Assembly (NCBI RefSeq): GCF_900184685.1
Contig: NZ_FXXL01000007.1
Span: 1,922,001 to 1,986,000 of the forward strand
Length of the DNA stretch: 64,000 nt
Direction: 5' to 3'
DNA from: Butyricimonas sp. Marseille-P3923
GTDB lineage: Bacteria > Bacteroidota > Bacteroidia > Bacteroidales > Marinifilaceae
The notes under the pieces were generated by a model that searched no databases, was not told the origin of the DNA, and worked only from the letters and a program-made list of their open reading frames with translations. Below, piece by piece: positions 19,984 through 39,100 of the stretch (within the stretch, counting starts at the first letter, position 1; every line of letters starts with the position of its first letter). Both the position numbers and the translations under genes were made by a program.

Positions 19984-21177
19984 TCAAGTTGTCGGTCGAA
20001 TATCATCCCAATCTGCACCCCCATTCGCTCCTATCAACCAGTTGAACGCGTAATGACGTTCCATCACTATTCCCCCATCCAATGAAGCAGGCATTTCTTT
20101 CCCATTGACACGGGCATCCACGCATGCCCAATCATAACGCAATGTCAAGTCAGCCTCATCCAGAATCTCCTCTTTACCCCGTGTTTCGCCTAACCCTAAA
20201 ATAGTCCCTTTCTCTTGGTTATCAAAGAAAAACCGGGCTATAAACGGGACATCACAAATCTCCAAGGGATAGGACAACTCCGCGCTCCCTAATGCCCACA
20301 ATAGCACGGCACAACACTCGTACCGCCACAGGAATTGAATACAGTCATGCTGTTCCGGTGAAGGATTTTGAAGATAAGTTTTCTCCAAGGGAGTCAGTTC
20401 GTCCATAATATGATAACTTTCATCTATTTTCTGCACGAAACTCAATCCTTCCTCTCGATCGGGATTCTCGGACAACATTACCTCCGAATACAATGCCACG
20501 GCAAACAACGCTGTCGCCCTACGGGCTATTTCTTCCGGAGTACGAATAACTGCTTCACTGTCCAATACCTCGCAAGGCAAATGCTCTATATAAGGTACAC
20601 CTTCCTCTTCCAAACGGACAATAGAACGCTCTCTACGATATTGATCCACATCCGTGGGTGCCGAACGTCCGACTTCCAACAAATCGGAGTTTGCCACCGG
20701 ACGAAAAGTCTCGTACTCGCTCTCACCTCGTGCCGAAAAAAGCAGTTTACCCTTACTGTCATACAGGCTCATGCTTGGGTAAAGCACGAAACCGTTTATA
20801 TCTGCCGCAACATCAAAAATAGTATTCACGATATAATTCGTCCGCTCCCGATTATCATCAACCTCGAACTCTATACCCACGACACAATTGAAACAATTGA
20901 CCTGACGAAGTACTTCTTCCTTGATAGCGGTCAATTCGGTTTCCGCCTGCGCAAAAAAATTCGCCATCCCGTTCGTGTGTTCTGCCACCCGCTCCGCCTC
21001 GTCCTTGGTCTGCATCATTGAACAACGAATCACCGAATCGTCCTGCAACACGAACATCCAGCGATTATTGTCGGGCGTGAACATTTTAGTTACCTCACGG
21101 AACCGCTTTTCCATAGATTGTGCCACCCGGTCGAAATCACCGATTACCGTGTAAAGAGTCAAATTTGCTTTCTCCAT
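19984..21177 (-). CDS. DUF4272 domain-containing protein
   Basis: 397-residue acidic, soluble protein. The C-terminal half matches DUF4272: it begins at IRTPEEIARRATALFAVALY near residue 215 and includes the conserved LTPLEKTYLQNPSPEQHDCI and FLWRYECCAVLLWALG segments. The N-terminal 200 residues contain a conserved-looking FVLYPSMSLYDSKGKLLFSA stretch. No signal peptide or membrane helix. DUF4272 proteins are widespread but have no known biochemical role. It is a single gene flanked by repeats on both sides. Confidence 0.8.
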   Translation of the reverse strand: MEKANLTLYTVIGDFDRVAQSMEKRFREVTKMFTPDNNRWMFVLQDDSVIRCSMMQTKDEAERVAEHTNGMANFFAQAETELTAIKEEVLRQVNCFNCVVGIEFEVDDNRERTNYIVNTIFDVAADINGFVLYPSMSLYDSKGKLLFSARGESEYETFRPVANSDLLEVGRSAPTDVDQYRRERSIVRLEEEGVPYIEHLPCEVLDSEAVIRTPEEIARRATALFAVALYSEVMLSENPDREEGLSFVQKIDESYHIMDELTPLEKTYLQNPSPEQHDCIQFLWRYECCAVLLWALGSAELSYPLEICDVPFIARFFFDNQEKGTILGLGETRGKEEILDEADLTLRYDWACVDARVNGKEMPASLDGGIVMERHYAFNWLIGANGGADWDDIRPTT

Positions 21178-21474: not shown

Positions 21475-23754
21475 CTATTTTTCCAAAGAAAAAGAGTAAG
21501 GGAAATCCGTATCACCGGTTCCTCTCGACTTATTCGGGCGTTCACTCATACGGAACTCTATCCGTCCGCCACCATGCAAGTCTTTATGTGTGACGTAATT
21601 CTTCGTGTAAACTCGTTTATTTAATTTCATCCCGTCGATATAGCGATGCGTATCGTCTGTCCCCGGGGCAACAATCTCCATCTTTTTCCCGTTCTCGAAA
21701 TGAATCGTTGCTTTCGGGAAAAGCGGTGTACCCAGCACGTATTGCTCCGAACCCGGACAGACGGGATAAAAACCAAGCGCCGAGAACACGTACCATGCCG
21801 ATGTCTGCCCGTTATCCTCGTCCCCGCAATAACCGTCCGGTCCGGGCGTGTACATCCGGTTCATCACTTCCCGCAGCCAGTACTGCGCTTTCCAAGGTTG
21901 TCCGGCATAATTATACAAGTATATCATGTGCTGTATAGGTTGATTCCCATGAGCGTAATTCCCCATGTTCATGACGGTCATTTCCCGGATTTCATGAATT
22001 ACTCCCCCGTAATAACTCTCGTCAAACAGGGGCGGCACGGCAAAAACAGAGTCCAGCATCTGCACGAAAGACTCTTTTCCTCCCATTAAATCAATCAACC
22101 CTTGAGGGTCGTGGAATACCGACCACGTGTAATGCCAACTATTCCCCTCCGTGAAAGCGTCACCCCATTTCAGGGGAGAGAAGGGCGTCATAAAAGTGCC
22201 ATCTTGATTCTTTCCCCGCATTAACTTAGTTGCGGGGTCGAATAAATGTTTATAATTCATCGCCCGTCGGGCAAATCGTTCCACTTCCTCTGCCGGACGC
22301 TCTAACTTCTTTGCTAATTGACAAATACACCAATCATCATAAGCATATTCCAATGTACGCGCGGCACTCTCGTTTATCCCCACGTCGTAAGGCACGTATC
22401 CCAATGTATTATAATACTCGTGTCCCAAACGTCCCGTAGAAGAGGCTTTCGGGTGCACGTGTTCCGTGCCGTGTATCAGCCCCTCGTACAGTGTTTTCAC
22501 GTCAGCCACCCGCACGCCTTTCAAATAAGCATCCACGAGCACAGAAGCCGAATTATTCCCGACCATACATCCCCGGTGTCCCGGGCTTGCCCATTCCGGG
22601 AAAAAGCCGCTTTCCTTGTAAGTATTAATTAATCCCTCCTGTATTTCCTTGTTCCGGGAAGGATAAACCAGATTTAACAAGGGAAACAGACAACGGAATG
22701 TATCCCAGAATCCCGTATCCGTGTATAAATATCCCGGCAACACCTCTCCATTATATGGACTGTAATGCACCGTGTTTCCCTCCGCATCTATTTCATAAAA
22801 CTTACGGGGAAAAAGTACTGAACGGTAGAGGCAAGAATAAAACACCCGGTATTGGTCCAACGAACCACCTTCTACCTGAATAGCTCCTAACACTTTATTC
22901 CATGCCGCTTTACTCCGCCCGACCAAGGTTTCGAAATCGTCATTTCCCAACTCTTTCAAGTTTATTTCAGCCTGTTCCGGGCTTATAAATGAAGATGCCA
23001 CGCGGGCGTGAACCTTCTCCCCTTTTTTTGTCCGGAAGCCAATCACGCTTCCCACGTGATGGGATTGCTGTACAGAATCGTCACTCAGTTTCCCGTCGAC
23101 AAACGTGTGTTTATACTCGAATGGTTTATCAAATTCTATCACGAAGTAATTCTTGAAATTCTCCGGCACACCGCCACTATTCCGAGTAGTGTATCCCACG
23201 ATCTTGTTATCTCCCTCGATACAGACAAATGAACCCCGGTCAAAAGCATCGACAACAATATACGAATGTTCGTTCTCCGGAAAAGTAAAGCGGAAAAGAG
23301 CCGCCCGTTCTGTCGTCGTGAACTCCGTCACCACATCGTGCTCGGCAAGATAAACCTTGTAATAATAAGGTTTCGCCACTTCCCCCTTATGCGAGAACCA
23401 ACTGGCACGCCGCTCCTGCTCGAACTCCGGTTTCCCGACCACGGGCATCAGCGAGAATTGACCGTAATCATTAATCCATGGACTCGGCTGATGCGTCTGT
23501 TTGAATCCCCGTATCTTGTTTGCCGTGTAGACATAAGCCCAACCGTCGCCCATTTTCCCCGTCTGGGGCATCCAGAAATTCATTCCCCACGGACGAGCAA
23601 TCGCCGGGTAAGTGTTCCCTGCCGACAACTCGAACGTGGACTGTGTACCCATAAGCGGATTCACGTACTCCACGGGCTCAAAAACAGTTTGAGCTCGCGC
23701 AGGAATACCCACGCCGAGCCACAAACAAACTAAAACACAAACATAATATCTCAT
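21475..23754 (-). CDS. GH92 family alpha-mannosidase
   Basis: Secreted calcium-dependent exo-alpha-mannosidase of 759 residues. Signal peptide MRYYVCVLVCLWLGVGIPAR, then the family start EYVNPLMGTQSTFELSAGNT, catalytic-domain motifs TEGNSWHYTW and CGDEDNGQTSAWYVFSALG. The ATG at 23754 before the signal peptide is preferred to a GTG two codons earlier. Where the second GH92 of this operon has HGNEPSHH, this one has HGNQPIQH, so the two probably cut different linkages (inference). Last gene of the GH92 / BSP / GH92 operon, 45 bases after the peptidase. Confidence 0.92.
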   Translation of the reverse strand: MRYYVCVLVCLWLGVGIPARAQTVFEPVEYVNPLMGTQSTFELSAGNTYPAIARPWGMNFWMPQTGKMGDGWAYVYTANKIRGFKQTHQPSPWINDYGQFSLMPVVGKPEFEQERRASWFSHKGEVAKPYYYKVYLAEHDVVTEFTTTERAALFRFTFPENEHSYIVVDAFDRGSFVCIEGDNKIVGYTTRNSGGVPENFKNYFVIEFDKPFEYKHTFVDGKLSDDSVQQSHHVGSVIGFRTKKGEKVHARVASSFISPEQAEINLKELGNDDFETLVGRSKAAWNKVLGAIQVEGGSLDQYRVFYSCLYRSVLFPRKFYEIDAEGNTVHYSPYNGEVLPGYLYTDTGFWDTFRCLFPLLNLVYPSRNKEIQEGLINTYKESGFFPEWASPGHRGCMVGNNSASVLVDAYLKGVRVADVKTLYEGLIHGTEHVHPKASSTGRLGHEYYNTLGYVPYDVGINESAARTLEYAYDDWCICQLAKKLERPAEEVERFARRAMNYKHLFDPATKLMRGKNQDGTFMTPFSPLKWGDAFTEGNSWHYTWSVFHDPQGLIDLMGGKESFVQMLDSVFAVPPLFDESYYGGVIHEIREMTVMNMGNYAHGNQPIQHMIYLYNYAGQPWKAQYWLREVMNRMYTPGPDGYCGDEDNGQTSAWYVFSALGFYPVCPGSEQYVLGTPLFPKATIHFENGKKMEIVAPGTDDTHRYIDGMKLNKRVYTKNYVTHKDLHGGGRIEFRMSERPNKSRGTGDTDFPYSFSLEK

Positions 23755-23799
23755 AAACACAACGTATTATATTACACCTCTCCAGTTTCTTGTACGTCT

Positions 23800-24579
23800 C
23801 TACTTATCTCCCATCGCGATCATGTATTCTTCCCAAAGCCGGTCTATGTCATATCCCTCCCCGAGAGCATATTGAATCGCACCTTGAAAAGACCAAGGAA
23901 TGACGTGCAAAGTACTGCGGTTAAATTTACGCAAAAAATCCGAATCTTTCGTCTGCGTCAACCAAGCCAAAAAGAAACCTGTTGTACGATACCCGTCCAT
24001 GTAATGTCCTCCCTTAGGGCGATCGTCCAAAGTGAAACCACCATTCACGTAACGCACGGCATCCGCCATCCCCTCGATGAAAGCCCAAAAAGTCTTGTTT
24101 GTCTCGTAAGTTCCTATCCCTTGCGGTTCCAATTGAAACCCGTGTGTCAATTCATGCCAGAGTACTCCCCGGTTTTCCCGCACCAACGCATCCATGTTTC
24201 CCTTGTAACTTTTCTCCACCCAATCCGTGCTGTAAGTAATCGTGATCGAGGGCGGATTACCGCTTTTCGCCGATATTCCGTCATAAGACTTTAATATATA
24301 AGTAATCCATCTCACTCCCGGAATACTATCCGCTAGTGAAAAATAGAGTGTATTCAATACTTGTCGGGCGCATTCCTGTATAAATTGTTCGGGATGGGGA
24401 ACGATGCGGGCGTATAATTCAGCCCCTTCCGTTTCCGGCGACAAATTCCGGAACTCCACTTGTCCCACGTCATAGGCAGACCAATCCACAACTTCTCCCG
24501 CTTTCGGGCTATTCTTTTTGCATCCGCAGGAACTTGCCATTCCCAAGATACACCAACATATGATTATCTTTATATTCAT
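23800..24579 (-). CDS. Basic secretory protein (BSP) family zinc peptidase, lipoprotein
   Basis: 259-residue lipoprotein with signal sequence and lipobox near GMASSC (Cys18). The zinc-binding HExxH appears as LWHELTHGFQLEP near residue 140, and AFIEGMADAVRYVNG (third ligand region) follows about 25 residues later, the layout of plant basic-secretory-protein-like metallopeptidases. Its start overlaps the stop of the upstream GH92 gene by 4 bases (ATGA), indicating translational coupling. Pairing a peptidase with two alpha-mannosidases suggests attack on mannosylated glycoproteins. Confidence 0.85.
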   Translation of the reverse strand: MNIKIIICWCILGMASSCGCKKNSPKAGEVVDWSAYDVGQVEFRNLSPETEGAELYARIVPHPEQFIQECARQVLNTLYFSLADSIPGVRWITYILKSYDGISAKSGNPPSITITYSTDWVEKSYKGNMDALVRENRGVLWHELTHGFQLEPQGIGTYETNKTFWAFIEGMADAVRYVNGGFTLDDRPKGGHYMDGYRTTGFFLAWLTQTKDSDFLRKFNRSTLHVIPWSFQGAIQYALGEGYDIDRLWEEYMIAMGDK

Positions 24580-26903
24580 CGTGTCAAGGAATAAGGTTTA
24601 TTATCTTCCGTGTAAATCCTATTTCGGTTGGGACGATTACTCATCTCAAACTCCAACACCCCTCCCGCCATGATATCCCGTTGGGTTATATAAGCCTTAT
24701 CATATGGTTTCCCGTTCAACCGGACAGCTTTCACGTATCGGTTTTTGTCATCCACTTTCGGCGCACGCACCTCAAACGTGTTGCCATTCTCCAAACGTAT
24801 TTTCATGTAGGGCAGGTAAGGTGCACCCAACACGTATTGATCCGTCCCGGGACAGACAGGATAAAATCCTAAAGCCGAGAAGATATACCAAGCAGACATC
24901 TGACCGCAATCGTCGTTACCGCATAACCCGTCGATTTTATTCCTGTACATACGGTTCATCACTTCCCGCACCCGGAACTGCGTCTTCCAAGGTTGAGAAG
25001 TCCAAGCGTACAAATACAACACGTGATGGCTGGGTTCATTCCCGTGCACGTAATTCCCCATTAACCCCTCTTCCGTGATGTCCTCCGTATCGGCATAATA
25101 TTTTTCCGGAAGATGCATCGTGAACAAGCTATCCAACCATTCAGCAAAACGCTTTTCCCCTCCCATCAAACGAATCAACCCGTTTACATCGTGCGGCACG
25201 TGCAACGAGTAATTCCACGAATTACCCTCGATAAATCCTTCACCATGCGTACCCAACGGATCGAACGGCTCTTTCCAGCTCCCGTCGGATAAGCGGGGAC
25301 GTGCAAATCCCAAACGTTCGTCAAACAGATTACGGTAATTCATCGCCCGGCTTTCGTATTCGTGAGCCATATTCTCGTTCCCCGCCGCCTTCGCCGTCCG
25401 ATATATCGCCCAATCGTCATACGCATTCTCCAGCGTGATGGAAGCACCATTCCCGTCTTTATCCACGGGCACGTACCCCTTTTCCACGTATTCACGGGTA
25501 TGTTGGTAATACGGAATATTCGAACTGTTCTTCATCGCCTCCAATACCAACGCCGTATCCAGCTCGATACCTTTCGCCACGGCATCCGCCACGACGGCAA
25601 CCCCGTGATAAGCGATCATACACCAGTTCTCGTTACCCATATGCGACCACACGGGCAAAGCCTTGTGTACACTCTGCCGGTAATGCTCCAACATGGACAT
25701 CACCATATCCCGGTTCCGCTCCCGGTTGATCACATTAAACAACGGGTGCAAAGCCCGATAGGTATCCCACAAAGAAAAAACGGTATAATTGGTAAAACCT
25801 TCCGCCTGATGAATCATGTGATCCACACCCCGGTACTGTCCATCCGCGTCCATGTAAACAGACGGATTTATCATCGTGTGGTACAACGAGGTATATAACA
25901 TACACAACTCGTCATGACTTCCTCGAGCCTCAATCACCGAAAGCTCCTGGTTCCATTTCTCTCCGGCACGTGCCGCCAACGTTTCAAAGTCAACACCTGC
26001 CGCTTCCGCCTGTAAGTTTTTCAACGCACCTTCCGTGCTCACGCACGAAAGAGCCACCTTAACCTCCAGTTCCGGGCTATCGTGTAAGTCGAAATCAAAA
26101 TATGCCACAATGCCCCTACCACCCATTTCCGGGAAATTGTGTTTCTCATCAAACCGACGCCAAAAACCTTTATAGTCCACCTCCTCGAAATTCTCGTGCC
26201 CGTAATTCCGTATCGGTTTGGAGAACGTTATCGCGAAATAGGTGTAATTCGTCCGAGCCCATCCCCTCGTGATCCGGTATCCTGTCAATAAGGTATCATT
26301 TTCCACCCGGAGATTCGCCCACAATACCTTCCCATCATAATTATATATTCCGTGCAACAAATCCACTATCACATGACCTTCTTCCACTCCTGACGGATAA
26401 GTATATTTGTGAATCCCCACCCGTTCCGTCGCTGTCAACTGCACTTTCACGTCATAATCCTGCAACATCACCTCGTAATAGCCGGGTAAGGCTTTTTCCT
26501 GATCGTGCGAAAACCGGGAACGATACCCCTCTTCCGGCTGTTCCGCCGTACCGGGAATTAATTTCAATTCCCCGACTGTCGGCATCAAAAGCACATCACC
26601 TAAATCCGAATGTCCCGTCCCGCTCAAATGCGTGTGACTGAACCCGACAATCGTCGGATCATCATACTGGTATCCGGCACAATATCGATAAGTATCTTTC
26701 CGGTAAACACCATCAATATTATGCGGCACGTTCTCCGTATCGGGACTTAACTGTACCGCACCATACGGAACGCAAGCCCCCGGGAAAGTATGTCCCATGC
26801 TTTTCGTCCCGATAAAAGGATTCACGTAATCCACCGGACTTTTCTTTTCTTCTTCATTTACCAGCATCGTTCCCAGACACAATAAAAGTACATTCAATTT
26901 CAT
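24576..26903 (-). CDS. GH92 family alpha-mannosidase
   Basis: 775-residue GH92 exo-alpha-mannosidase. N-terminus MKLNVLLLCLGTMLVNEEEK is a weak signal sequence, followed by the family start DYVNPFIGTKSMGHTFPGAC. Motifs in the catalytic domain: FIEGNSWNYSLHVPHD, NYVHGNEPSHHVLYLYAW and CGNDDCGQMSAWYIFSALGF, with the acid and base residues of the family in the EGNSW and NDDCGQ segments. First gene of the operon; a strong terminator (26976-27017) separates it from the Sus-like locus upstream. The HGNEPSHH form is the one common in alpha-1,2-mannosidases, which is a tentative assignment. Confidence 0.92.
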   Translation of the reverse strand: MKLNVLLLCLGTMLVNEEEKKSPVDYVNPFIGTKSMGHTFPGACVPYGAVQLSPDTENVPHNIDGVYRKDTYRYCAGYQYDDPTIVGFSHTHLSGTGHSDLGDVLLMPTVGELKLIPGTAEQPEEGYRSRFSHDQEKALPGYYEVMLQDYDVKVQLTATERVGIHKYTYPSGVEEGHVIVDLLHGIYNYDGKVLWANLRVENDTLLTGYRITRGWARTNYTYFAITFSKPIRNYGHENFEEVDYKGFWRRFDEKHNFPEMGGRGIVAYFDFDLHDSPELEVKVALSCVSTEGALKNLQAEAAGVDFETLAARAGEKWNQELSVIEARGSHDELCMLYTSLYHTMINPSVYMDADGQYRGVDHMIHQAEGFTNYTVFSLWDTYRALHPLFNVINRERNRDMVMSMLEHYRQSVHKALPVWSHMGNENWCMIAYHGVAVVADAVAKGIELDTALVLEAMKNSSNIPYYQHTREYVEKGYVPVDKDGNGASITLENAYDDWAIYRTAKAAGNENMAHEYESRAMNYRNLFDERLGFARPRLSDGSWKEPFDPLGTHGEGFIEGNSWNYSLHVPHDVNGLIRLMGGEKRFAEWLDSLFTMHLPEKYYADTEDITEEGLMGNYVHGNEPSHHVLYLYAWTSQPWKTQFRVREVMNRMYRNKIDGLCGNDDCGQMSAWYIFSALGFYPVCPGTDQYVLGAPYLPYMKIRLENGNTFEVRAPKVDDKNRYVKAVRLNGKPYDKAYITQRDIMAGGVLEFEMSNRPNRNRIYTEDNKPYSLTR

Positions 26904-27030: not shown

Positions 27031-29616
27031 CTAACGAATACCTTCTACATCCAAAGCCTGTCTGATTTTATAATGTAAATACTCGTAATAGTCCTTCATT
27101 TCTCCCGTGCTTGTTTTCATGGCATTATTCACCATACCATCGATTTTCAGCAACATTTGGTAAAAGACATGAGAACGTGACAATGTATTTACCTTAATCC
27201 CCTCTTGCGCATAGAATCCACTGATATTTTCTACCTGCATCCGCTCCATCTTTTCACAAAGAATAGGGTCATAAAGTTGTCTGCCACTGCTTATTCCCTG
27301 TGCCAACGCTTTCGTGTGTGCATCCAGTTTCGCGGCATCTTCCGTTACCGTCGAAGAAGCAATCACAGCAGCCAAGAAAGCCATCTGGAAATCCCTTTCC
27401 AACGGATCCAATTTTCTACGTTTTATGGTACCCTCCCACACCATCCGGTACAATTCATCCATGTACTCGTCTGCGGTATATCCCCCGCTTGCCTTACGGG
27501 AACTCATAATAACCATATACCAACGAGAAAATAACAATCCAAAAATATCCATCCGTTTTTGCTGCACGGCGGAAGAGTTCACCCGCAGGTCATGTCTTAA
27601 TTCTTGATTATCCAACCATTCCAAATCTTTAGCCTGTGCCAACAAGAAATTAATGGTTTCCCGTTGTTTGGCTTTAGGAACAACCGCATAATGCTGTACA
27701 TTCTCATCGCTATTACCTTCGTTGATATACATACCGCCGATATAAGATGCAATCCGGTTCAACCCATCCATATACCGTCCTTGCATAAAACCATACAACT
27801 TATTCTGGAGTTCCAGTGTTTTATCCTCTTCGGCAAACCATTCACGACAATGAGCCATCGACTTTTTCAGATTCTTTATCAGATATTCCCCCGCTTTAAC
27901 ATGATCGTTCCCCAAATCCTCACTCAATATTCGGGGATCGTAAACATTCGAGGTAAAAGGGGTATGCCCGTATGTTTTAGCTATATCCAGACGGGATTCT
28001 TTAATCCAACGATCCAAAGTATCGCATTCCTCGTCCGCGTTCTTCACCCCTCGAATCGGTTTATACAACCATTCTATGGCGTAATAATCGTATTCCCCCA
28101 GCTTGTCTTGTACCAGCATCACGCCATTTTTCACGTCTTCTTCCTGAGCGACATAATTATACGGCACCATATCCATTATCGAGGGTGACAACCCGTGTTC
28201 TCTCGTGAAAGTCGCAGAACGCAACGAATCAACCGGGTAAACAGAAGATGCCCGCAAATTGGATCTCAATCCCAAACACGAACCGATCTCCCGAATCATC
28301 AGACTCTTTATCAATTGTCCCATCACCTCCTCTGACAAAACAGCTTTACGTGCTTCCGGGTCTGCCGCCATCGTGTATAGAAGCCTGTCCCGATGCAGTA
28401 TGAACAAAAAATGATGATGTAAATACAACGATGCGTTAAGAATCTCCCCGCTCCGGTTATCCACCAGCATAGATTGTTGGGGACGATACATATTCGGAGA
28501 GGTCGGAGAATAACGAATCACAGAATGCTGAATATTCCCCGCGTCAAAATCCGAAGTTCCGGGAAAAGGAACAGCACGCAGTACATTTTTAAACCCGATA
28601 CGTTCGAAAGCCTTATTCCACTCTTCAATACCCGCACGAACATATTTCGTCCAACTTTCCGGCATCAACGTATCCAAGTAAAAAACGATCGGCTTTTTCG
28701 GTTCCACAACCTGCCCAGCCCAATAAGCGACCTCGTCACTCGGCTCCACTCGCCAACGTCTGGCTAGATGCTTCTTTGTCAATATTGATTTTTCTTTCCC
28801 GATTTCGGGAATTGTCACGAAACTTACCCCAATCCTAGAATCAGCATAACGAGGTGTCATTTTATCTTCGGGCAGAACCACCAACATTTTATTAAATGTT
28901 ACGGAAACTTTTATATTCTGTCTTGTTACAGAGCCTACCACGATATGATCCACATCATACCCCGATTCACAAACCACGGTAACGCTCCGTCCATCCGCCT
29001 TGACCTCTTGAAACAAATTCCGATTCGCTTTATACTTTTGATTCCGCCCGACGAATCCCCATACAGAATTGGCAGCCTGAACGGAAAACGGATTCGTGAA
29101 CGCCGTGTGTTCCAAGAAAAAAGATGTCATATTCAACACCACGGCACGATTATCCGGCGTGTAAGTCTCTATTTTAAACGTAGCGTACACCCCCGGCATA
29201 AAAGATTTCTCTAAAGCACTCTCCATGTTAGCATCTCCACTACCGTTACCGACAGGAGCACCTTGCCGCAAACGAGCCTGCACGTAATCTCCCTCTTTCG
29301 TGAACACGAACACTTGAGGAGTCCCGGCAAATTGCCCGACAACTCCCTCTCCGTTATCACTCGTGTTCTCTATCGACGAAGCGAATAACATATCCTTGCC
29401 CAACAAATCCAAGGGAAACTCCACGTATACATTTCCCCCCGCGTAATGAATCGTCATTACACCCTTTGCCGTCTTTACACTCTTACCATCAAAGAGTTTC
29501 TGATAAGCCGAATTTTTATTCTTACCCGTATCCTTCTTCTCCCGCACCATCCCGCTGCCCTCGAACGGACACAGAACTATCGAAAGAAGAAACACTATAT
29601 ATATGATATTTTTCAT
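27031..29616 (-). CDS. Zinc metalloprotease-like protein with destroyed zinc site (pseudoprotease)
   Basis: 861-residue secreted protein, paralogue of the next gene, with the same layout: signal peptide (MKNIIYIVFLLSIVLCPFEG), SAYQKLFDGKSVKTAKG, then the DUF5117/DUF4953-type domains. Active relatives have HEVGHCLGFMHN; here the aligned segment reads REIGSCLGLRSN. The His residues at positions 1, 5 and 11 are replaced by Arg442, Ser446 and Ser452, while the Glu and the later SIMD Met-turn remain. It cannot bind zinc in the usual way but is full length with no stop or frameshift, so it is probably kept for binding or regulation. ATG 29616 before the signal peptide is preferred to one nine codons earlier. 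Last gene of the locus. Confidence 0.88.
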   Translation of the reverse strand: MKNIIYIVFLLSIVLCPFEGSGMVREKKDTGKNKNSAYQKLFDGKSVKTAKGVMTIHYAGGNVYVEFPLDLLGKDMLFASSIENTSDNGEGVVGQFAGTPQVFVFTKEGDYVQARLRQGAPVGNGSGDANMESALEKSFMPGVYATFKIETYTPDNRAVVLNMTSFFLEHTAFTNPFSVQAANSVWGFVGRNQKYKANRNLFQEVKADGRSVTVVCESGYDVDHIVVGSVTRQNIKVSVTFNKMLVVLPEDKMTPRYADSRIGVSFVTIPEIGKEKSILTKKHLARRWRVEPSDEVAYWAGQVVEPKKPIVFYLDTLMPESWTKYVRAGIEEWNKAFERIGFKNVLRAVPFPGTSDFDAGNIQHSVIRYSPTSPNMYRPQQSMLVDNRSGEILNASLYLHHHFLFILHRDRLLYTMAADPEARKAVLSEEVMGQLIKSLMIREIGSCLGLRSNLRASSVYPVDSLRSATFTREHGLSPSIMDMVPYNYVAQEEDVKNGVMLVQDKLGEYDYYAIEWLYKPIRGVKNADEECDTLDRWIKESRLDIAKTYGHTPFTSNVYDPRILSEDLGNDHVKAGEYLIKNLKKSMAHCREWFAEEDKTLELQNKLYGFMQGRYMDGLNRIASYIGGMYINEGNSDENVQHYAVVPKAKQRETINFLLAQAKDLEWLDNQELRHDLRVNSSAVQQKRMDIFGLLFSRWYMVIMSSRKASGGYTADEYMDELYRMVWEGTIKRRKLDPLERDFQMAFLAAVIASSTVTEDAAKLDAHTKALAQGISSGRQLYDPILCEKMERMQVENISGFYAQEGIKVNTLSRSHVFYQMLLKIDGMVNNAMKTSTGEMKDYYEYLHYKIRQALDVEGIR

Positions 29617-29648
29617 GACAACTAGTTTACTGTTAATAATCACCCGTC

Positions 29649-32258
29649 TCAGTTATTCTTAAAAACCTTCTCCAATTTATAAACCAACAACTGATAATGC
29701 AATCGAGTATCTTCTGTTGCCGTATTCATCCGGCTTTTCAATAAAGCCAAGGTCTTTTTCAACATCAAGAAACAATCCGTCCCGATAGAAACATTCGGTC
29801 TGTTCAGGTTCGTCGTTCTACCGAAACCGCTAATTTCCTCCGGAGCGAAACAACATCCCCTACGCGCGAACATACCCAGATATTCGTCAGGCAACTCGCC
29901 ATAAATATTCCGGCTATTCTCTTGCACGTAATCCATAACCTCAATCATCCCGTCACGGGAGAACGCAAAAGGCGAGCCGCCCATTCCTTTCACTTCCACG
30001 CCGGAAGCAGACACCAAAAACGATAAATACTTGATTTGCAATCGTTTTTCAATTTCAGACAGAGAATTTCTCTTCTTGGTAGGAGCCATGATAAATTCAT
30101 ACAAATCATTCATATACTCCCGAGTAGAATAAGCCTCCTCTTTCGACTGTTCCATGCACACGGCTAACGCGTTCAACCGAGACAATAGTCCCCTGAAAAT
30201 AGCATTTTCCATATCTCCCGAAATATCGCTCATCAACGGCAGACCATCCTTGAAATCCTTCGCATCAATCCAAGCCATCTCTTTCAACTGATCCAACAAA
30301 AACACCAAAGCCTCCTTTTGTCTGGCTTTAGGAACTAAAGCATAAGCAGGTATCGGATCCCCGGCATATTTTTCATTCAAGTAAATACCGCCGATATTAA
30401 AAATAACATTATTCAAATACCTGAAATACTGCATTACAATCTCGTTATAAATCTGTTGGCGAAACGCATAATCTTTATCTTCTGCCTCTACCCATTCATT
30501 CAGGTTCGCCAAAATATATTTCAAATTCTTTATCCCGTACGCAGAGGATTTTATCGGATCATCTCCCAAGTCTTCCTCGAAAGAACTCGGATCCCAACGA
30601 GAGTTTATCTGCTGTCTTCCATAGCGATATATAGGATCGCCCGCTTTCTCGCCAATCCAACGATCCAGAACAGGCACTTCCTCGTCCGTGGTCTTCTCGT
30701 CCAACAAAGGCGTGTACAACCATTTTATCGTGAAATAATCATACAAACCCAAATGAGGCGGCGTCAACTTCACACCCCTCTCCTTGTCTCCCGGTTGTGC
30801 CACGTAATTGTTCCGGGCATAATCCATGATTGAATGAGTTGTCCCGTACTTTTGCGTGTAAGAAGGCGAACGCAAAGAATCCGTGGGGATTGCGGCAGAA
30901 GCACTCATATTATGCATAAAACCCAGACAATGACCTACCTCGTGCGCAATAGCGTAACGGATGCTCTCACCCAATAATTCTTCCGGCAACTGCATCCTCC
31001 GCACGTCAGCATCCGCCTGAGCCGTCTGTACGAATCGCCAATTTTGAATCAATTGAGCTATATTGTGATAAAAATAAACCGAAGCATTGATAATCTCTCC
31101 CGTCCGGGGATCTGTCCACGAGGGTCCCATAGCGTTAGGTGTCCACGAGGGAGAATAGCGTACACAAGAATATTTCAGATTTTCCGGATCAAATTCCGGA
31201 TCATTCTCCGGGAAATCCTTGGCTATAATCGCATTTTTCAAACCGATCTTTTCAAAGGCTTTCTGCCATTCTTCTACCCCTTGCTTGATGTATTTCTTCC
31301 AACTCTCCGGGAATGCGTTATCCACGTAAAACACAATCGGTTTCTTCACCTCCGTCAATTGTCCGGCACGATAAGCCGCCTCATCCGCAGGTTCAAGCCG
31401 CCAACGATTAGCATAGTAACGAAAATCGACACCACTCTTTTTTGAATTAAATTCATATTTTGCCTGATAGAATATAGCAATACGGGGATCTGCCATACGG
31501 GGACGCATCGGTTCTTCCGGCAACAAAATAAAACTACGTGTCATCACCGCGGTAAAAGGTACTTTCTGAAACAATACCCGCTCTTGATTCCGCACGGTAA
31601 CCAAATAACTCAAAGAAGAGCGTATGCTAAAATTATCCTCGAAAGCCTTAATTTCCCCGATAAATGAATTTTTCTTCACAAACTCCTTGTCCACGCGACG
31701 CCTGCCACTATTGATCGGTGCGAACTGGGAAAAGGGAGATAATCCCTCGTTATCACTCAATAAAAAATCGGTCAAATCCAGCACAACTGCCGTACTGTCT
31801 TCCGAGTACACCTTCACCGGAAGATTCAAAATAATAGCCGGCTTAAAACTCTCTTCCAAACGTTTCCTTATACCCTCCTCCGTGGTATAATATATCGCAC
31901 TCACCTCCCGCAAGCTAATTATCGAGTCTTGGCGGGTAAACACCACGTGCAGCGGTTCTTTAGGTTTCTCTCCCACGCTCCCGAAATCATTATTCGTGAT
32001 TTCGCTAATCGTCGAACCAAGCAACATCTCTTTCCCCAACAAATTCAACGGTAACTCGAAATAGATCTTCCCGTCCATTTTGTGCAACGTGATTAAACCT
32101 CGCTTTGTTTCGCACGACTTTCCCTTAAAAAAGCGTTGGTAAGCACTTTCCGTTTTTACCTCTTTAGTCGCTTGTTTCTTCTTCCGCCCTTTACCCTCTG
32201 CCGACACAACACTCAAAGAAAGAAATATAAATACAAATACAATTGATTTCAATATCAT
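29649..32258 (-). CDS. Zinc-dependent metalloprotease (DUF5117/DUF4953 family)
   Basis: 869-residue secreted metalloprotease. Signal peptide MILKSIVFVFIFLSLSVVSAEG, basic linker GKGRKKKQ, SAYQRFFKGKSCETKRG, then the catalytic motif AIAHEVGHCLGFMHN near residue 437 and Met-turn THSIMDYARNNYVAQPGDK. The extended HExxHxxGxxH is intact. These proteins are common beside SusC/SusD pairs in Bacteroidetes; substrates are not established. The gap to the degenerate paralogue is 32 bases, so they are co-expressed and probably arose by duplication. ATG 32258 is chosen over one eight codons upstream because it precedes the signal peptide. Confidence 0.9.
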   Translation of the reverse strand: MILKSIVFVFIFLSLSVVSAEGKGRKKKQATKEVKTESAYQRFFKGKSCETKRGLITLHKMDGKIYFELPLNLLGKEMLLGSTISEITNNDFGSVGEKPKEPLHVVFTRQDSIISLREVSAIYYTTEEGIRKRLEESFKPAIILNLPVKVYSEDSTAVVLDLTDFLLSDNEGLSPFSQFAPINSGRRRVDKEFVKKNSFIGEIKAFEDNFSIRSSLSYLVTVRNQERVLFQKVPFTAVMTRSFILLPEEPMRPRMADPRIAIFYQAKYEFNSKKSGVDFRYYANRWRLEPADEAAYRAGQLTEVKKPIVFYVDNAFPESWKKYIKQGVEEWQKAFEKIGLKNAIIAKDFPENDPEFDPENLKYSCVRYSPSWTPNAMGPSWTDPRTGEIINASVYFYHNIAQLIQNWRFVQTAQADADVRRMQLPEELLGESIRYAIAHEVGHCLGFMHNMSASAAIPTDSLRSPSYTQKYGTTHSIMDYARNNYVAQPGDKERGVKLTPPHLGLYDYFTIKWLYTPLLDEKTTDEEVPVLDRWIGEKAGDPIYRYGRQQINSRWDPSSFEEDLGDDPIKSSAYGIKNLKYILANLNEWVEAEDKDYAFRQQIYNEIVMQYFRYLNNVIFNIGGIYLNEKYAGDPIPAYALVPKARQKEALVFLLDQLKEMAWIDAKDFKDGLPLMSDISGDMENAIFRGLLSRLNALAVCMEQSKEEAYSTREYMNDLYEFIMAPTKKRNSLSEIEKRLQIKYLSFLVSASGVEVKGMGGSPFAFSRDGMIEVMDYVQENSRNIYGELPDEYLGMFARRGCCFAPEEISGFGRTTNLNRPNVSIGTDCFLMLKKTLALLKSRMNTATEDTRLHYQLLVYKLEKVFKNN

Positions 32259-32460: not shown

Positions 32461-33996
32461 TTACATATCCCGACCTGATAATTTATACTTGTAAATCACA
32501 TCGGCAATCCGACCGAAACCGCCCTGTTCATACAGCACGACAGGCTCACCCGCTTTCAATACCGAATCTTCAACGTTAAACAGGATGAACGTCCCGTCTT
32601 CCAGTCCTACCCCCAGCTCCTTATTCCCTTCGGCAGGGTGCATCGCCATAATGGCACGTCCGTTCAAAGAGGTATAATGATATGATTTCCCGGTACTCAG
32701 ATCGTAATAATACAACTCGTCATTATTCACTCCCCCGGAGAAAAAAATGTAGGTACGATTTCTCAATATCCTGAAAATACTTCTATCCGTCACGTATCCA
32801 TCCGTCTTGCCGGAGAACGTCTGACATTTATCCAACGCATCCAACGTAATTACCCCCAACGCGTTGGCTGCAATCCCGAATGTTTCCACTTTCCAATCGT
32901 CCCCGTCCCGTAAAATCAAGGCATACTTCGTACTTCCTTGCATGGTGCCACCGTAAGCCGCACCGTATACCAACTCATAATCACCCAAATTATTCACCGG
33001 AATAAAACCGGCAGGATAAGTCCCCGTGTACTGCAACTCCCTGTACTCTTCTGCCGTCGTGTAATAGGCACTTCTCACGTGAATCAACCGACCGTTCAAC
33101 TCGTCATACAAAAGAAAATGCTTGAGATACTGGTGTGCCGTTTCAATAATCTGACCGATTTTATACCCTTTATTAATATATACCGGAACATTATTGTAAG
33201 CCGCGGAGTGATACCCCATACTCTTCGGGTCGTTGAAGAAACGGGTATAAATTTTCCCATCCTCACTCAACACGATATTCATGTAGAACGGGTAGAACGC
33301 GGATACCAATTTAAAATTCTCCGGGGGATTTCCTCCCACGAACTCCTCACGGGTCAATACCTCTTTCTCGTTCGTGTTACCGTTCAATTCCACGGGTCCC
33401 TGCCCGCCATTCTGAATAACCAGCAACTCCGACCATTTACAATAATTAGTCGCGTTCCAAAAGAAATGCTGAACCAATTTCACCGGTTCCGAACCCATAT
33501 CCTCCCCGTTTGCCTCCCGGTACAAATCATAATAAGCATGATACTCTTCATCTTGGGAAACACTAGGTAAATTTATATGCCCCAGTTTTGATACCCCGCC
33601 TTCTTCATACAGGATAGAGAACCCCGATTGATACACCGTCGCCGCAACAATGGACATCGTGCCACTATACACTTTCCCATTACGGTTATCCTTCAAGGCT
33701 AACCGGCAGGCATACGTTTTTGCTTGTTCCGGGGTAAATTCCAAAACCCGCTCCGTGGAAACGACCTCATAATCAACACGCCACTCGTACGAGAAATCCG
33801 TGGAGTCACCTTCACCAAACCGGATTTTAGGCTCAACCTTCACTTCATCATGCACAAAACAATTCACCGTGTAAGTTTCAAACGAAACCTTCGCGTCTCG
33901 TATCGCCTCGTATTTATAATTACCTTCGTCTTTGATACAGGAAAACAATCCTACCATCATCAACAAAGACAGATATATTACATTTTTCATTTTCAT
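32461..33996 (-). CDS. PKD-like family surface lipoprotein
   Basis: 511-residue lipoprotein: MKMKNVIYLSLLMMVGLFSC gives a lipobox with Cys20, followed by IKDEGNYKYEAI, the typical start of the PKD-like family in Sus-type loci. The N-terminal about 120 residues look like a PKD/Ig-like fold (FSYEWRVDYEVVS), followed by a larger domain with repeated aromatic beta-strands that could be a beta-propeller. These are thought to be surface ligand-binding proteins assisting SusC/SusD. It lies 14 bases after the DUF4843 gene. Confidence 0.82.
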   Translation of the reverse strand: MKMKNVIYLSLLMMVGLFSCIKDEGNYKYEAIRDAKVSFETYTVNCFVHDEVKVEPKIRFGEGDSTDFSYEWRVDYEVVSTERVLEFTPEQAKTYACRLALKDNRNGKVYSGTMSIVAATVYQSGFSILYEEGGVSKLGHINLPSVSQDEEYHAYYDLYREANGEDMGSEPVKLVQHFFWNATNYCKWSELLVIQNGGQGPVELNGNTNEKEVLTREEFVGGNPPENFKLVSAFYPFYMNIVLSEDGKIYTRFFNDPKSMGYHSAAYNNVPVYINKGYKIGQIIETAHQYLKHFLLYDELNGRLIHVRSAYYTTAEEYRELQYTGTYPAGFIPVNNLGDYELVYGAAYGGTMQGSTKYALILRDGDDWKVETFGIAANALGVITLDALDKCQTFSGKTDGYVTDRSIFRILRNRTYIFFSGGVNNDELYYYDLSTGKSYHYTSLNGRAIMAMHPAEGNKELGVGLEDGTFILFNVEDSVLKAGEPVVLYEQGGFGRIADVIYKYKLSGRDM

Positions 33997-34010: not shown

Positions 34011-34694
34011 TTATCCAATTACTGTTACCGTCATGGCTTTACCATCTACATCCAGCACGACTTCATCCTTGTCTTCCATCTCACGCAAATAATACTTTAA
34101 CTGTAACGCATAAGCCCTTCTCGTTGAAGCATCCAGATTAGTCCAATCTCCCTCCCCGGTCACCTTAATCAACAATTGATACTTCGGAATCGAATAAGTA
34201 CCGAGAAAAGACTTCTCTACATCCCCATCCCACCATTCCGGTATCGACACCTCACTACTCAAATTAATAATCTTGTATTGATAACTGTATTCCCCCGCCA
34301 AAACATCCGCCCCGTTCCCCCGGATAGCCAACACGATTCGCACGCGAGTATCCCCGGGGTTATTCAATACCAACGAAATCGTGTCTTTCACGTGTTCCTT
34401 ACGAAAAACATAATACTCCGGAAGTACGATATGTTCATCCGTTGCCGTGGACAAGTCTTTATCCAGCTCGACAACAAACGACCGGTCTTCCAAGAACAGA
34501 TTTCCCAGCATTTCCACTTCTACCGGAATCTCAATCTGCTCCGCATTCCCGTAAAAGAAAAACGAAATATCCATCGAATCCCGGTAAGTATCCGAAAACT
34601 GGATATAATTCACGGTATCATACATCGGAATATTCTCCTTTGAACACGCTCCCAACAGGAATACACTTAAAATAAATACATATATCTTTTTCAT
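34011..34694 (-). CDS. DUF4843 domain lipoprotein
   Basis: 227-residue lipoprotein with signal MKKIYVFILSVFLLGACSKE (lipobox LGAC, Cys17). The rest is a DUF4843 protein: YIQFSDTYRDSMDISFFFYG near residue 30 and EIPVEVEMLGN are typical. This family is nearly always encoded directly after SusD and before a PKD-like gene, as here. The role is unknown; a surface-exposed accessory of the SusC/SusD complex is the usual suggestion. The spacing to SusD is 17 bases. Confidence 0.85.
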   Translation of the reverse strand: MKKIYVFILSVFLLGACSKENIPMYDTVNYIQFSDTYRDSMDISFFFYGNAEQIEIPVEVEMLGNLFLEDRSFVVELDKDLSTATDEHIVLPEYYVFRKEHVKDTISLVLNNPGDTRVRIVLAIRGNGADVLAGEYSYQYKIINLSSEVSIPEWWDGDVEKSFLGTYSIPKYQLLIKVTGEGDWTNLDASTRRAYALQLKYYLREMEDKDEVVLDVDGKAMTVTVIG

Positions 34695-34711: not shown

Positions 34712-36184
34712 CTAAAACACCTTTTCATCATCCGGCAAAGGCAACACGAACGAATTTCCCAACGTGACAGATTCACTTCCGCTCAACACCGGATGGTTCA
34801 AACGTTTAAACATAAAAAAAGTCTGTCCTTCAGCGAGATACTCTTTCATTCCTTCCCAGATTAACTCCTCCTTGAAAGTGCTGGCGGACACGCTTTCCGG
34901 GATATTACGCTTACACCCGCGTCCTCCCCGCACCTTCTCCAGATACTTCACGGCAGCAGCATTACCGGCAGCAGAACCATACGTTGTTTCTGCAAGGATA
35001 TAGCATATTTCACTAAATCTCAACGCCGGAATCAAAGCATATTGCACTCTCACAAAGTTTTCCGATGCACCCAAATCCAACCACTTCTGTGAACGATTCG
35101 CATCAATAGTCCAATCGACAAGGTATTGGCGATAATCATCCCCGTCGCCCCTGTCCCCGAACAGACTGCCGGCATTCTTCAACAACATCTTGGGCTTACC
35201 GGTCGCCTCCGTGAAATCCTCCACATCTTCCGTCAATTTTTTATTATAAAATGCAAACAGAATATCATTGTACGCTTTCACGTATTTATTCACGCCGGAA
35301 ACATTCAAATCCGACGATGAAGTAAAATAAATATCCCACGAATCCTCCTTAGCTTCTACTAACTCATACACGTGCAACGCATACCGGTTAGCCTCTTCAT
35401 TTTCACCCGCGTACAAGCACAAACGCGCTAATGTCCCGCACACGGCCAAATAATTCATTCTGGTTCCCCGGAAACTGAAAAAACGGTTTCCGGAATCCTC
35501 CGCGACAAAACGATTGGCATACGCCATCTCATCGTCCAAAGTATCATTCTGCACTACAAGATCCTTTGCCTTCAACAAATCCTCCTTGGCAAGGCGAAGT
35601 ACCTCTGAAGTCGGCAAAGCGGATTCATAATGCGTCGGGTAAACCGTCACGTAAGGAATATACGCCCCGTTGTCACCGGTCGCCGGAGCCGGGGCAAACA
35701 TACGCAACAAATCCAAGTGCAGGTATCCCCTCAACGCCAAGGCTTCGCCATATATCAAATTTCGTTCGCGTTCACCCAAAGGAAAGAAAGAGGCATCCTT
35801 AGCTTCTATCTCCGCGATTAATTTATTGCAATTCGCGATAGCATTATATCCACCCTTCCAGATCTTTGAGATAACATCTTTGACATCCTTTGAATTATAA
35901 TCATAAACAACTGCCGCTTTATAAGCATCATTTTGACTGACATCCCCAGCCTCGTAAGTTTGCGCCAACACGCTGAGAAATCCCCATGAAAGCTCCCGTC
36001 CGTACATTTCCGGTTCGGACAACTTATAATACACTCCGTTCAAAGCACTTCGGAATCCCGTGTAATCCTTAAATGTCTTCTCGTCACTCGCCTGATTATC
36101 CGACTCCACGTCCAACCAACTATTACACGCCGCTAACCCGAACAGCATCAACAACAACAAGTAATTATATCGTATCATAATCAT
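34712..36184 (-). CDS. RagB/SusD family surface lipoprotein
   Basis: 490-residue substrate-binding lipoprotein that caps the SusC channel. Signal and lipobox LLLLMLFGLAAC (Cys20), then NSWLDVESDNQ, the standard SusD start. The TPR-like helical core includes GEALALRGYLHLDLLRMFAP near residue 150, the family hallmark. The C-terminal half ends with GRGCKRNIPESVSASTFKEE and YLAEGQTFFMFKRLN, where SusD proteins carry the RxxEL-type signature. The partner SusC ends 5 bases upstream. Confidence 0.93.
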   Translation of the reverse strand: MIMIRYNYLLLLMLFGLAACNSWLDVESDNQASDEKTFKDYTGFRSALNGVYYKLSEPEMYGRELSWGFLSVLAQTYEAGDVSQNDAYKAAVVYDYNSKDVKDVISKIWKGGYNAIANCNKLIAEIEAKDASFFPLGERERNLIYGEALALRGYLHLDLLRMFAPAPATGDNGAYIPYVTVYPTHYESALPTSEVLRLAKEDLLKAKDLVVQNDTLDDEMAYANRFVAEDSGNRFFSFRGTRMNYLAVCGTLARLCLYAGENEEANRYALHVYELVEAKEDSWDIYFTSSSDLNVSGVNKYVKAYNDILFAFYNKKLTEDVEDFTEATGKPKMLLKNAGSLFGDRGDGDDYRQYLVDWTIDANRSQKWLDLGASENFVRVQYALIPALRFSEICYILAETTYGSAAGNAAAVKYLEKVRGGRGCKRNIPESVSASTFKEELIWEGMKEYLAEGQTFFMFKRLNHPVLSGSESVTLGNSFVLPLPDDEKVF

Positions 36185-36189: not shown

Positions 36190-39100
36190 TTAAAAACTTG
36201 CATTTAAGGTCAAATTAAAAGTTCTGGCAAAGGGATAAGACAACCCCCGCTCTTGTTTCACGCTCGAAATCGTGAATATATCCTTCATGTTAAACGATAA
36301 CCGCAACATACTCATCCGCATTTTCTTCAATAAGTCTTTATCGAAATCATACCCTATCGTGAGTGAATTAAAGTTCAACATATTGTAATCCTGCACGAAA
36401 CGAGAGGTTGGCAAAGTCACGTTATTCCGGTCTTTAATTGACTTCAAACGTGTCAACTCCCCGGGCTTTGCCCATCGCTCCGTGAGAACACGCTTGTCCG
36501 CATTCGTTTCGTACAACTTCACGTTCTCCACCTTATCGACCAAAGTCTGGTTATACACTTGTCCCCCGAATTCATACATAAACGTGGCAAATAACGTGAA
36601 CCGCTTCCACTGCAAATTCACCCCGAAAGAACCCGTTGCATCCGGTTCCGTGTCACCTAAAATAGACTGTTGGCTGGATGTCCACTCCTGAATGACCTGA
36701 CCACTCCGGTCAAGAAACAACTCGCTCCCGTTACTCGGGTTTATTCCCAAAGAACGCATCCCGTAAATAGCCGTCAAAGAACCTCCTTCCTCGTATTTCA
36801 GCAAAGGTTTGCTATACTTCAAATCCTGTTTGTTGAAAACGTTATCAAAGTATTCATCAAATTTCTCGTTTACCCGTTCATTATACGCCTTCAAGGATTC
36901 AGAAATCTTCAATATTTTGTTCCGGTTATGTGCCAGATTCCCGAACACGGCAACCATCCAATCTTTATTCTGGAGAATATTAAAACGGACATCCAATTCG
37001 AATCCCTTATTCTCCACCTCACCCATATTATCCTTGTAAGAAGTAAAACCGGTATGGGTAGGAATCGTCACATCCGTGATCAAATCCTTGGTCTTTTTAT
37101 TATACCACGTAAACTTCGTATAAATCGCGTCATTCAAGAAACCCAACTCCAATTTCAAATCACGGGAAAAAGTCCGCTCCCATTTCAAATTCTCATTTCC
37201 CATATAGTGCAAGTAAATACCGCCACCCGTGGAATAATACGAATTCGTAACATCATAAGTATGCTTGGCAGCGTAAGCGGGGAAATTGGTTTTTCCCAAC
37301 ACTCCCATGGTCCCCGTGATCTTCAACAAGCTCACCACATCCTGCGCTTTCATAAACTCGTAATTATGCACGTTCAACCCGACACCCCCGGAATAAAACG
37401 GAGCATATTTCTTGTCTGCCCCGAACTCGGACGAACCGTCCAGACGCCACGAGGCATCAAGTAAATAAATATCGTTATACGTGTAGTTTAATGAAACAAA
37501 CGCCCCGAACAGCCGCTTTTTATTATCCGAATACGTGGGTACATCATCCACGTTCTCCGCGAAAGCCGGGGTATTCAATTCACCCGAAGGAAATCCCAAA
37601 TATTTCTCCACCGAACTATTCGTACTCTCCGTGTTCGTGTTCAATCCCAACGAAAAATTCATATTATGCTTCTTTATCGCCTGCACGTAATTCAACACGA
37701 AATTGGTATTCCATTTCACCAGTTTCCTCTTACTCAAATTCAACGAACCTTTCTTGTCATCATCCACGTTGTAAAACGAAGAAGAAAGCGGGTCTTTAAA
37801 AACTTTTGTTTCAGTATCGGTCAAAGTTACCGCTACCTGTCCTTTAAAATAAAGACTCTTCGTGATATACCAGTTCAAACTCAAATTATTCGTCAAATCC
37901 TGTATTTTACTTTTATCAAAACTCTTCAACATTTTCGCCTCGTACAACGGATTTTTCGTGCCACTCATACCCCCATGCCAAAGTTTTGTCTGTTCCACGT
38001 AATTTCCATCCGCATCTTTCAACTCATCATACGGCAATTTCTTCGTGTAATCACTAAAATCTCCATAAGGAGAATTTTCTGATTTCGTGACCGTGTAGGC
38101 GATCTGATTCTTCAACTGCATCCCGCCGATACGGTAATCCAAGTAAAATCCAGCTCCCAAGCGCTCTCGGAAAGATCCTTTCATCACTCCATTCTGGTTA
38201 TCGTAATTCAGATCCACGTTAAAACGCATATTCTCGGAACCACCCTGAATGGCAAGACTATGTTTATGATTAAATTCGTTCTGCAAAGGTTGTGACAACC
38301 AGTCCGTGTTTACCCCCCGAATAATGTTCGACAACTTCGCCTCGTACTCGCTTAAAAGAGTATAAGACGAATTAATGTTGGAAGTCGGTTCATAATACCC
38401 TGCCAACCGCTCAGCCTCAAGCAACTCTTTAGCGTTCATTAAATTATAATCCGACAAATCCGGAGCGGTAAGCGCACCCGTGAAATTATACATCACGTTC
38501 AACTGTCCCGGTTTCGGCGCCACCGTTTCAATCACCACCACACCGTTAGCCGCACGGGAACCGTAAATAGCCGTAGCCGCGGCATCCTTCAATATCGTGA
38601 TACTCTCTATACGGTTCGGGTCAAAATCATACACCTTTTGCACCGTCACCTCGAAACCGTCCATAATAAAAATAGGTGAATTGGGATTATTACTCAAAGC
38701 CGATTCGGAAAGGCTCTCCTTATCCAAATCCATCACCCCGATACCGGAACGTCCCCGGATATAAAACTCCGGCAATGTATTCGGGTCTGCTCCCATTTCG
38801 TTATTTTTCATGATACGCAATGAAGGATCAAACACCTGCAACACATCGATCACGTTGGTCGGCGATACCTTGAACAACTCCTCTTTATCCACCCTCACCG
38901 CATTTCCGGTAAAACTGGACTTTTTCACGTTAGCGTATCCCGTCACGACCACCTCTTCCATTTGTTTCACGTCAGGTTTCATCTTCACGGTCACCTCCCG
39001 CGTGCTATCCGTTACCACAACTTCCTGAGTTTCGAAACCGATAAAAGAGAATACCAAAGTTATGGGTAATTTCATCGTCAACGCACTTTTGAATTTTCCA

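Follow-up and report, generated by a model that had tools for sequence, protein, structure and literature searches.

Tandem metzincin genes with intact and ligand-less zinc motifs in Butyricimonas sp. Marseille-P3923 and other Bacteroidales

The stretch of DNA analysed here, the window, comprises 64,000 nucleotides of Butyricimonas sp. Marseille-P3923 (contig NZ_FXXL01000007.1, positions 1,922,001 to 1,986,000) and encodes tandem metzincin twins, both with the domain order DUF5118-DUF5117-DUF4953. The upstream twin carries the zinc motif HEVGHCLGFMHN and the downstream twin, termed the pseudoprotease, carries REIGSCLGLRSN. The pseudoprotease is under purifying selection. All 49 distinct ligand-lost copies of the family that were collected adjoin an intact copy, the same side-by-side coding of an active and a ligand-less homologue that is found in M16B heterodimers. 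The reading that we favour, with a probability of about one half, is that the pseudoprotease is a non-catalytic partner subunit of a heteromeric protease, which it would form with its active twin and which would work like the M16B heterodimers. The pseudoprotease would then perform no hydrolysis of its own; it would assist its active twin in folding, shape or gate it, or complete its substrate chamber.

Sequence alignment places Arg, Ser and Ser of the pseudoprotease at the three ligand His positions of its twin. The HExxHxxGxxH/D zinc motif is present in the intact twin (HEVGHCLGFMH) and absent in the pseudoprotease (REIGSCLGLRS). Glu is retained at motif position 2, so all three zinc ligands are gone and the catalytic Glu is not. 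The Met-turn SIMD is present in both twins, and the frame of the pseudoprotease has no internal stop and no frameshift. The three Pfam domains score above their gathering thresholds in both twins; the pseudoprotease scores 44.8 (DUF5118), 96.9 (DUF5117) and 265.8 bits (DUF4953, Met-zincin), and the intact twin has DUF4953 at 342.8 bits. Both proteins, as judged by eye, begin with a Sec-type signal peptide, after which comes a basic stretch. The stop of the intact gene lies 5 bases ahead of the GTG of the pseudoprotease open reading frame (ORF) and 32 bases ahead of its ATG. An earlier note on this DNA had described tandem metalloprotease paralogues, one with His replaced by Arg, Ser and Ser and with signal peptide, SIMD and frame preserved, and all of this stands; its 861-residue protein is the product of the ATG start at 29616. 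The orthologous pair of Butyricimonas synergistica has an inactive member that reads REIGS..A and is 88% identical to the window pseudoprotease. Ligand loss is therefore more than a sequencing error, and annotation by family name alone would label the dead copies metalloproteases.

Nei-Gojobori ratios of non-synonymous to synonymous divergence (omega; synonymous divergence, dS) between the window and B. synergistica are 0.095 for the pseudoprotease (dS 0.62) and 0.048 for the intact twin (dS 0.58). In two other comparisons the inactive copies have values of 0.065 and 0.071 and the intact copies 0.041 and 0.085; dS is unsaturated, up to 1.15, in all three inactive comparisons (0.065 to 0.095). 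On saturated dS, omega is 0.071 (inactive) and 0.058 (intact) for the QIKE comparison, and 0.157 and 0.086 for L122/L123. One further comparison gave no dS. Sixteen of the 17 ligand-lost copies collected in the genus are open and one has an in-frame stop. The expectation of the earlier note that selection has kept a non-catalytic protein is borne out by these values; the orthologue lacks an intact HExxH as well, and an omega of 0.095 does not indicate relaxed selection throughout the gene. A recent loss of the ligands is ruled out by the ligand-lost orthologue and by omega. A decaying duplicate is rejected on the same two grounds, despite the one in-frame stop and two short copies from metagenome bins.

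The 49 ligand-lost copies comprise 17 from the genus and a further 18, 1 (L261) and 13 from wider searches. Forty-eight lie directly downstream of an intact copy; L261 lies upstream of one. The genus sample, which is not exhaustive, consists of six genomes including the window's own, from which 106 family members were collected. It contains 17 ligand-lost copies and three that lack the third His only, and all 20 adjoin an intact copy. Beyond the genus, the best 80 loci of a longer list were taken from a scan of named genomes, together with searches by family and order. Pairs are present in Sanguibacteroides, Alistipes, other Rikenellaceae, Prevotella oral taxon 376, a Bacteroides metagenome-assembled genome (MAG) and other Bacteroidales MAGs. 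These searches applied an E-value cut, which could have excluded distant ligand-lost copies that stand alone in genomes other than the own genome. Copies that have lost the third His only (two HEHN and one HEHD in the genus, one HEHD in L228) are left out of the 49 because HEXXHXXGXXD is, in the cited passages of PMC3890501, a working motif in Asp-zincins. Two such HExxHxxGxxD copies are middle members of three-gene arrays, L088 5389-7923 and L228 7448-9991, and by their motifs may still be active.

A profile built from ten pseudoproteases separates pseudoproteases (at least 994.9 bits) from intact neighbours (at most 753.4 bits) in six genomes, where six of the seven pseudoproteases found were themselves in the profile. 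In an even sample of the order, a strict cut-off yields pseudoprotease-profile matches in 11 of 149 genomes. Only one of the ten matching genomes other than the own genome held a pair among neighbours viewed within 1.5 kb, which indicates that the pair is patchy and not universal. In the family of genome G203, 18 of 120 genomes match at the cut-off and, in our reading of the loci, 11 of 120 hold at least one pair.

Individual loci vary around this arrangement. L261, the sole exception to the active-upstream order, has the lost copy first and retains its third His. The intact partner of L322 is split over two frames. L225 8837-19527 of Sanguibacteroides (G016) is an array of intact, lost, intact and lost members followed by a fifth, with repeated pairs in one locus. 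At L076 a TAG follows shortly after the signal peptide of the pseudoprotease, and the remaining frame of 829 residues is open and conserved.

The own genome (G000) has 45 members of the metzincin family in 5.3 Mb. Alignment shows H, E, H and H in 37 of them, lost ligands in seven and loss of the third His only in one. Same-strand arrays account for 26 of the 45 genes and include all eight copies with changed ligands (hypergeometric p 0.007, shared history ignored); the 19 copies outside arrays are all intact. Of the seven two-gene arrays, six have an intact gene followed by a lost one and the remaining array has two intact genes. B. synergistica (G005) has a comparable count, 42 family matches at E 1e-100, and most other genomes of the taxonomic family have far fewer metzincin candidates. 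One of the 19 copies outside arrays, an intact family member with HEIGHTLGLMHN, lies in the window at 44428-47097 on the minus strand; large ORFs occupy 47130-54255 upstream of it. In L025 the intact members 505-3222 (+) and 3289-5850 (-) are convergent, unlike the own genome's other arrays, and the search match to the second member contains a stop.

Phylogenetic reconstructions with the motif and Met-turn columns removed reveal one clade of 30 pseudoproteases (support 99), the main clade, and the intact partners of its members fall into matching groups. Separate trees of these 30 pairs have 21 of 27 splits in common, as against at most 3 in 2000 shuffles. Of the splits with bootstrap support of at least 95, all 17 of the intact tree recur in the lost tree, and 17 of 18 recur in the reverse direction. 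Intact and lost distances correlate at 0.917 (at most 0.406 in 5000 shuffles). An enlarged set of 43 pairs, whose 13 additions were not tested afresh for main-clade membership, gives 31 of 40 common splits (at most 2 in shuffles), and supported splits recur in 24 of 26 and 25 of 27 cases. SusD served as a control at 17 loci, hand-picked from 29 for a same-strand SusD gene that precedes the pair, with motif columns included. Here 11 of 14 splits are common to the trees of the two twins (r 0.948), as against 7 of 14 for the intact twin and the SusD of its locus (r 0.661); the partial correlation between the twins given SusD is 0.905. Transmission is thus tighter within the pair than between the pair and the surrounding locus.

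A sister relation of the window twins, as expected from local duplication and recent decay, was rejected by the approximately unbiased (AU) test (p about 1e-50), and so was that of the L185 twins; the test used the LG model without mixture on 23 hand-chosen rows, and long branches share the model's pull. One clade, mirrored trees and the AU rejection together indicate that the main pair arose once, before the compared loci spread. Since then, copying or transfer has carried the two genes together, as one unit, through many loci and several families.

A single origin of all ligand loss is rejected. At least four further independent losses have occurred, each in tandem with an intact copy. Those outside the main clade are clade II (three very divergent pairs), an NNTC copy with HEHN rows, a QKNN copy with one HEHD row, and L261, whose lost copy is the sister of its own intact partner (support 97). 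The origin trees were calculated with FastTree and carry long-branch warnings for clade II, whose own number of origins is unsure. Linkage alone is no explanation for such recurrent ligand loss in tandem.

In a set of 26 non-redundant pairs, the intact partners conserve 175 columns at a level of 90% or more; the pseudoproteases reach that level in 37 of the 175. The columns kept are mainly scaffold residues. Those lost include the zinc motif, the NAMGPSW edge, H406, W415, the post-Met-turn residues and R553/Q557/Q558; lost columns are placed in the cleft by homology, not from the model. No new consensus has replaced them, and only one column is 90% conserved in the pseudoproteases with a different commonest residue in the partners. 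In 24 pairs, identity within the pseudoproteases relative to that within the intact partners is lowest in the catalytic region (0.61 to 0.62) and highest in DUF5118 and the C-terminal part (0.74 to 0.75), an 11-residue linker (0.84) being set aside. Of 43 pseudoproteases, 38 have Arg, Gln or Lys in place of the first ligand. Mutation bias may contribute to this, since a single base change can turn a His codon into one for Arg or Gln. The same count shows that the old site is not random, as would suit a pseudoprotease that had gained a separate activity or a target unrelated to its twin; such a protein would hardly stay beside an intact copy in all 49 cases, nor would the independent losses be expected in tandem, and we consider this explanation to have only a slim chance.

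The glycine of the metzincin motif forms the turn towards the third His. It is retained in all 43 pseudoproteases and is Ser or Ala in 14 of their 43 intact partners. The change occurs in none of five intact partners outside the main clade and in none of 132 distinct intact copies outside such pairs. A pooled test of 13/30 against 0/134 gives a Fisher value of 2e-11, with relatedness ignored and two of the 134 being duplicates. The tree of 30 requires five changes, so the glycine change is not one event, and related rows still weigh on the count. Ser or Ala at this position hints at a changed, partner-dependent active site in the partnered enzymes.

AlphaFold2 models have a mean predicted local distance difference test score of 82.3 for the pseudoprotease and 83.6 for the intact twin. 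The pseudoprotease model has a metzincin-like fold at residues 271-532, with a confidence of about 95 in the former active-site helix. This region aligns with karilysin 2xs4 (VIA-align; Z 9.0, 3.7 Å, 152 residues) and with other metzincins; the intact twin aligns with MMP-9 4h2e (Z 9.4, 3.0 Å, 147 residues) and with myroilysin and astacin. Solved metzincins fill most of the top structure rows for both twins, at middling Z, and an unrelated row reaches 8.9 for the pseudoprotease, whose helical C-terminal matches are uninformative. A Foldseek search of the PDB gave no match for the pseudoprotease at E up to 0.001. A PDB sequence search gave weak matches only (best chain 4l63, E 0.021 with the single protein and 0.034 with the profile).

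The pair lies within a run of minus-strand genes (Table 1) in the order ECF sigma factor, FecR, SusC, SusD, DUF4843, PKD-like, intact metzincin, pseudoprotease, GH92, BSP, GH92 and DUF4272. SusC and SusD genes, matched by TIGR04056 and PF14322, are adjacent in this run, as in a SusC/SusD-type uptake locus, and they recur at other pair loci. The order SusD-DUF4843-PKD directly ahead of the pair on the same strand is found at 15 of 29 main-clade loci (29 loci hold the 30 pairs), in Butyricimonas, Sanguibacteroides, an Alistipes bin and Bacteroidales bins. It is also found at L307, L312, L313 and L319, and at L261 with the twins swapped. Active/inactive pairs at other Sus-protease loci, a point raised by the earlier note, are thus clearly present. 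A SusC or SusD relative lies somewhere in the fetched stretch of 26 of the 29 loci. None was seen in L122, L123 and L223, where the fetched stretch may be too short or the genes may have diverged beyond recognition. The pair of L089 has FecR on one side and SusC on the other. The SusC/SusD genes of L117, and a SusC gene of L128, are on the opposite strand. The GH92 and BSP genes of the window suggest a glycoprotein substrate.

Table 1. Positions of the metzincin pair, its motifs and the genes around it, counted from the first nucleotide of the window.
Feature	Position	Strand	Remarks
DUF4272 protein, end of gene run	19984..21177	-	same place in Butyricimonas synergistica (L071)
Second GH92 glycosidase	21475..23760	-	family match
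BSP-family peptidase (PF04450)	23800..24579	-	Pfam
GH92 glycosidase, downstream, same gene run	24576..26903	-	family match
Pseudoprotease gene	27031..29616	-	861 residues from ATG 29616; ORF from GTG 29643, 870 residues
Met-turn SIMD in pseudoprotease	28171..28182	-	residues 488-491
Degenerate zinc motif REIGSCLGLRSN	28258..28293	-	residues 451-462 of pseudoprotease ORF; aligned with HEVGHCLGFMHN of the twin
Intact metzincin gene	29649..32258	-	869 residues from ATG 32258; ORF from TTG 32282, 877 residues
Intact zinc motif HEVGHCLGFMHN	30909..30944	-	residues 447-458 of active ORF
PKD-like protein (PF16407)	32461..33996	-	Pfam; frequent neighbour of such pairs
DUF4843 protein	34011..34694	-	Pfam; frequent neighbour of such pairs
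SusD-like protein	34712..36184	-	PF14322
SusC/RagA TonB-dependent transporter	36190..39645	-	TIGR04056, 661.2 bits
FecR anti-sigma regulator	39688..40848	-	Pfam
Extracytoplasmic function (ECF) sigma factor	40941..41519	-	Pfam

SusD lies outside the outer membrane. A lipobox, looked for by eye and pattern only, is found in neither window protein and in none of 35 pseudoproteases; two of 35 intact partners were flagged. From their sequences both window proteins look periplasmic, and the pseudoproteases are probably not on the surface with SusD. This bears on the suggestion of the earlier note that the inactive protein binds peptide for delivery to SusC/SusD. A peptide receptor passing substrate to SusC/SusD or to the twin could make use of the retained metzincin-like fold with its confidently modelled former active-site helix, would find SusC or SusD close by at most main-clade loci, and could show its diversified recognition in the fast and diverse change of cleft residues. 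The suggestion is not upheld, given the predicted location and the loss of many partner-conserved cleft columns without a new consensus. We judge a receptor role unlikely, and a peptide receptor for SusD less likely than a heteromeric subunit, guard or chaperone.

Co-inheritance with the active twin favours the latter group, whether chaperone, inhibitor or subunit. A dedicated inhibitor or folding chaperone would bind its twin transiently, or guard it in zymogen-like fashion up to the point where the proper location or substrate is met. The linkage, co-transmission and selection data apply to it equally, the active-first gene order would suit a guard made later, and nothing found separates it from a constant subunit. 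However, partnerless intact copies are common and presumably fold and stay in check alone, and we regard a dedicated inhibitor or chaperone as improbable. For the heteromeric protease that we favour, we infer contact between the two proteins and periplasmic action on peptides or glycopeptides that the SusCD pair imports. Likewise, the unusual Ser or Ala that replaces the motif glycine in many intact partners would be a sign that these enzymes depend on their pseudoproteases.

Several observations weigh against a heteromeric protease. Intact-intact tandems exist (in the own genome, L227 and L316) and 19 of the 45 own-genome copies stand outside arrays, so the fold needs no dead partner in general. 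Immediate neighbours share a tree by linkage, and the SusD control lessens this concern and does not remove it, as SusD is some kilobases away; the idea that linkage alone produced the mirrored trees is nonetheless weakened. Overall, the pseudoproteases evolve 1.56 times faster than their intact partners. One of 12 main-clade copies of the genus (G001, L076 7888-10513) has an in-frame TAG near the mature N-terminus, and two pseudoproteases from metagenome bins are short (L115, 676 residues; L160, 641 residues). The last three observations would also be expected of a decaying duplicate heading for loss. Low omega wherever dS is unsaturated, open frames across several families and the single old clade make that explanation extremely improbable.

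A wider claim can be put forward tentatively, with the odds against it. The pairs may represent a new bacterial class of heteromeric metzincins, an obligate active/pseudoprotease dimer tied to Bacteroidales SusCD import loci. The dead half, with Arg, Lys or Gln at the first ligand and the motif glycine, would let the live half tolerate Ser or Ala, and the heteromer would have evolved at least five times in one family. The family is a natural experiment on the origin of enzyme/pseudoenzyme partnerships, from homomer to heteromer: catalysis was lost in tandem arrays at least five times, one clade has been kept across several families, and intact-intact tandems serve as controls. The pair points to proteolysis as an uncharacterised step associated with SusCD uptake in gut Bacteroidales.

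The twins belong with the DUF4953/DUF5117/DUF5118 Met-zincins (PF16313, PF17148, PF17162). The pseudoprotease shares all three domains, the Met-turn and the metzincin-like fold with them, and differs in the absence of the zinc ligands. An open-access literature search by these domain names found no paper on the family. Nor did the open-access literature, which most subscription journals lie outside, yield a description of active/inactive pairs in the DUF4953 family or in SusCD loci. A reprolysin-like Pfam model is matched by the intact twin below cut-off only (20.9 bits against 22). Karilysin, serralysins, myroilysin and astacins have the catalytic-domain fold in common with the twins, and are without their DUF5117 N-terminal and helical C-terminal parts. 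Animal ADAM pseudopeptidases are, in the cited section of PMC11266112, metzincin homologues without catalysis that serve protein-protein contacts. Unlike the window pair, they are multidomain animal membrane proteins and not an operon pair.

The closest parallel is M16B. In the cited portion of PMC12731061, M16B pairs consist of an active protein and a motif-less homologue acting as one enzyme, and TTHA1264 alone is monomeric and inactive and pairs with the neighbouring-gene product TTHA1265. The mitochondrial alpha/beta MPP is given as an M16B heterodimer in the part of PMC11266112 cited. MPP alpha/beta, SPH2681/SPH2682, TTHA1264/TTHA1265 and AlbF/AlbE thus resemble the window pair in having an active protein and a motif-less homologue. 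M16B proteins have an HXXEH motif and a clam-shell architecture, whereas the window twins are metzincins of about 870 residues whose complex is a proposal. A Pfam scan of either twin at E up to 0.001 gave no M16 model; both are DUF4953. In the window family, unlike M16B, ligand loss is repeated and many pairs lie in SusC/SusD loci. Active/inactive protease pairs are already known as a kind; within the literature searched, what is new here is the metzincin family and the SusCD setting.

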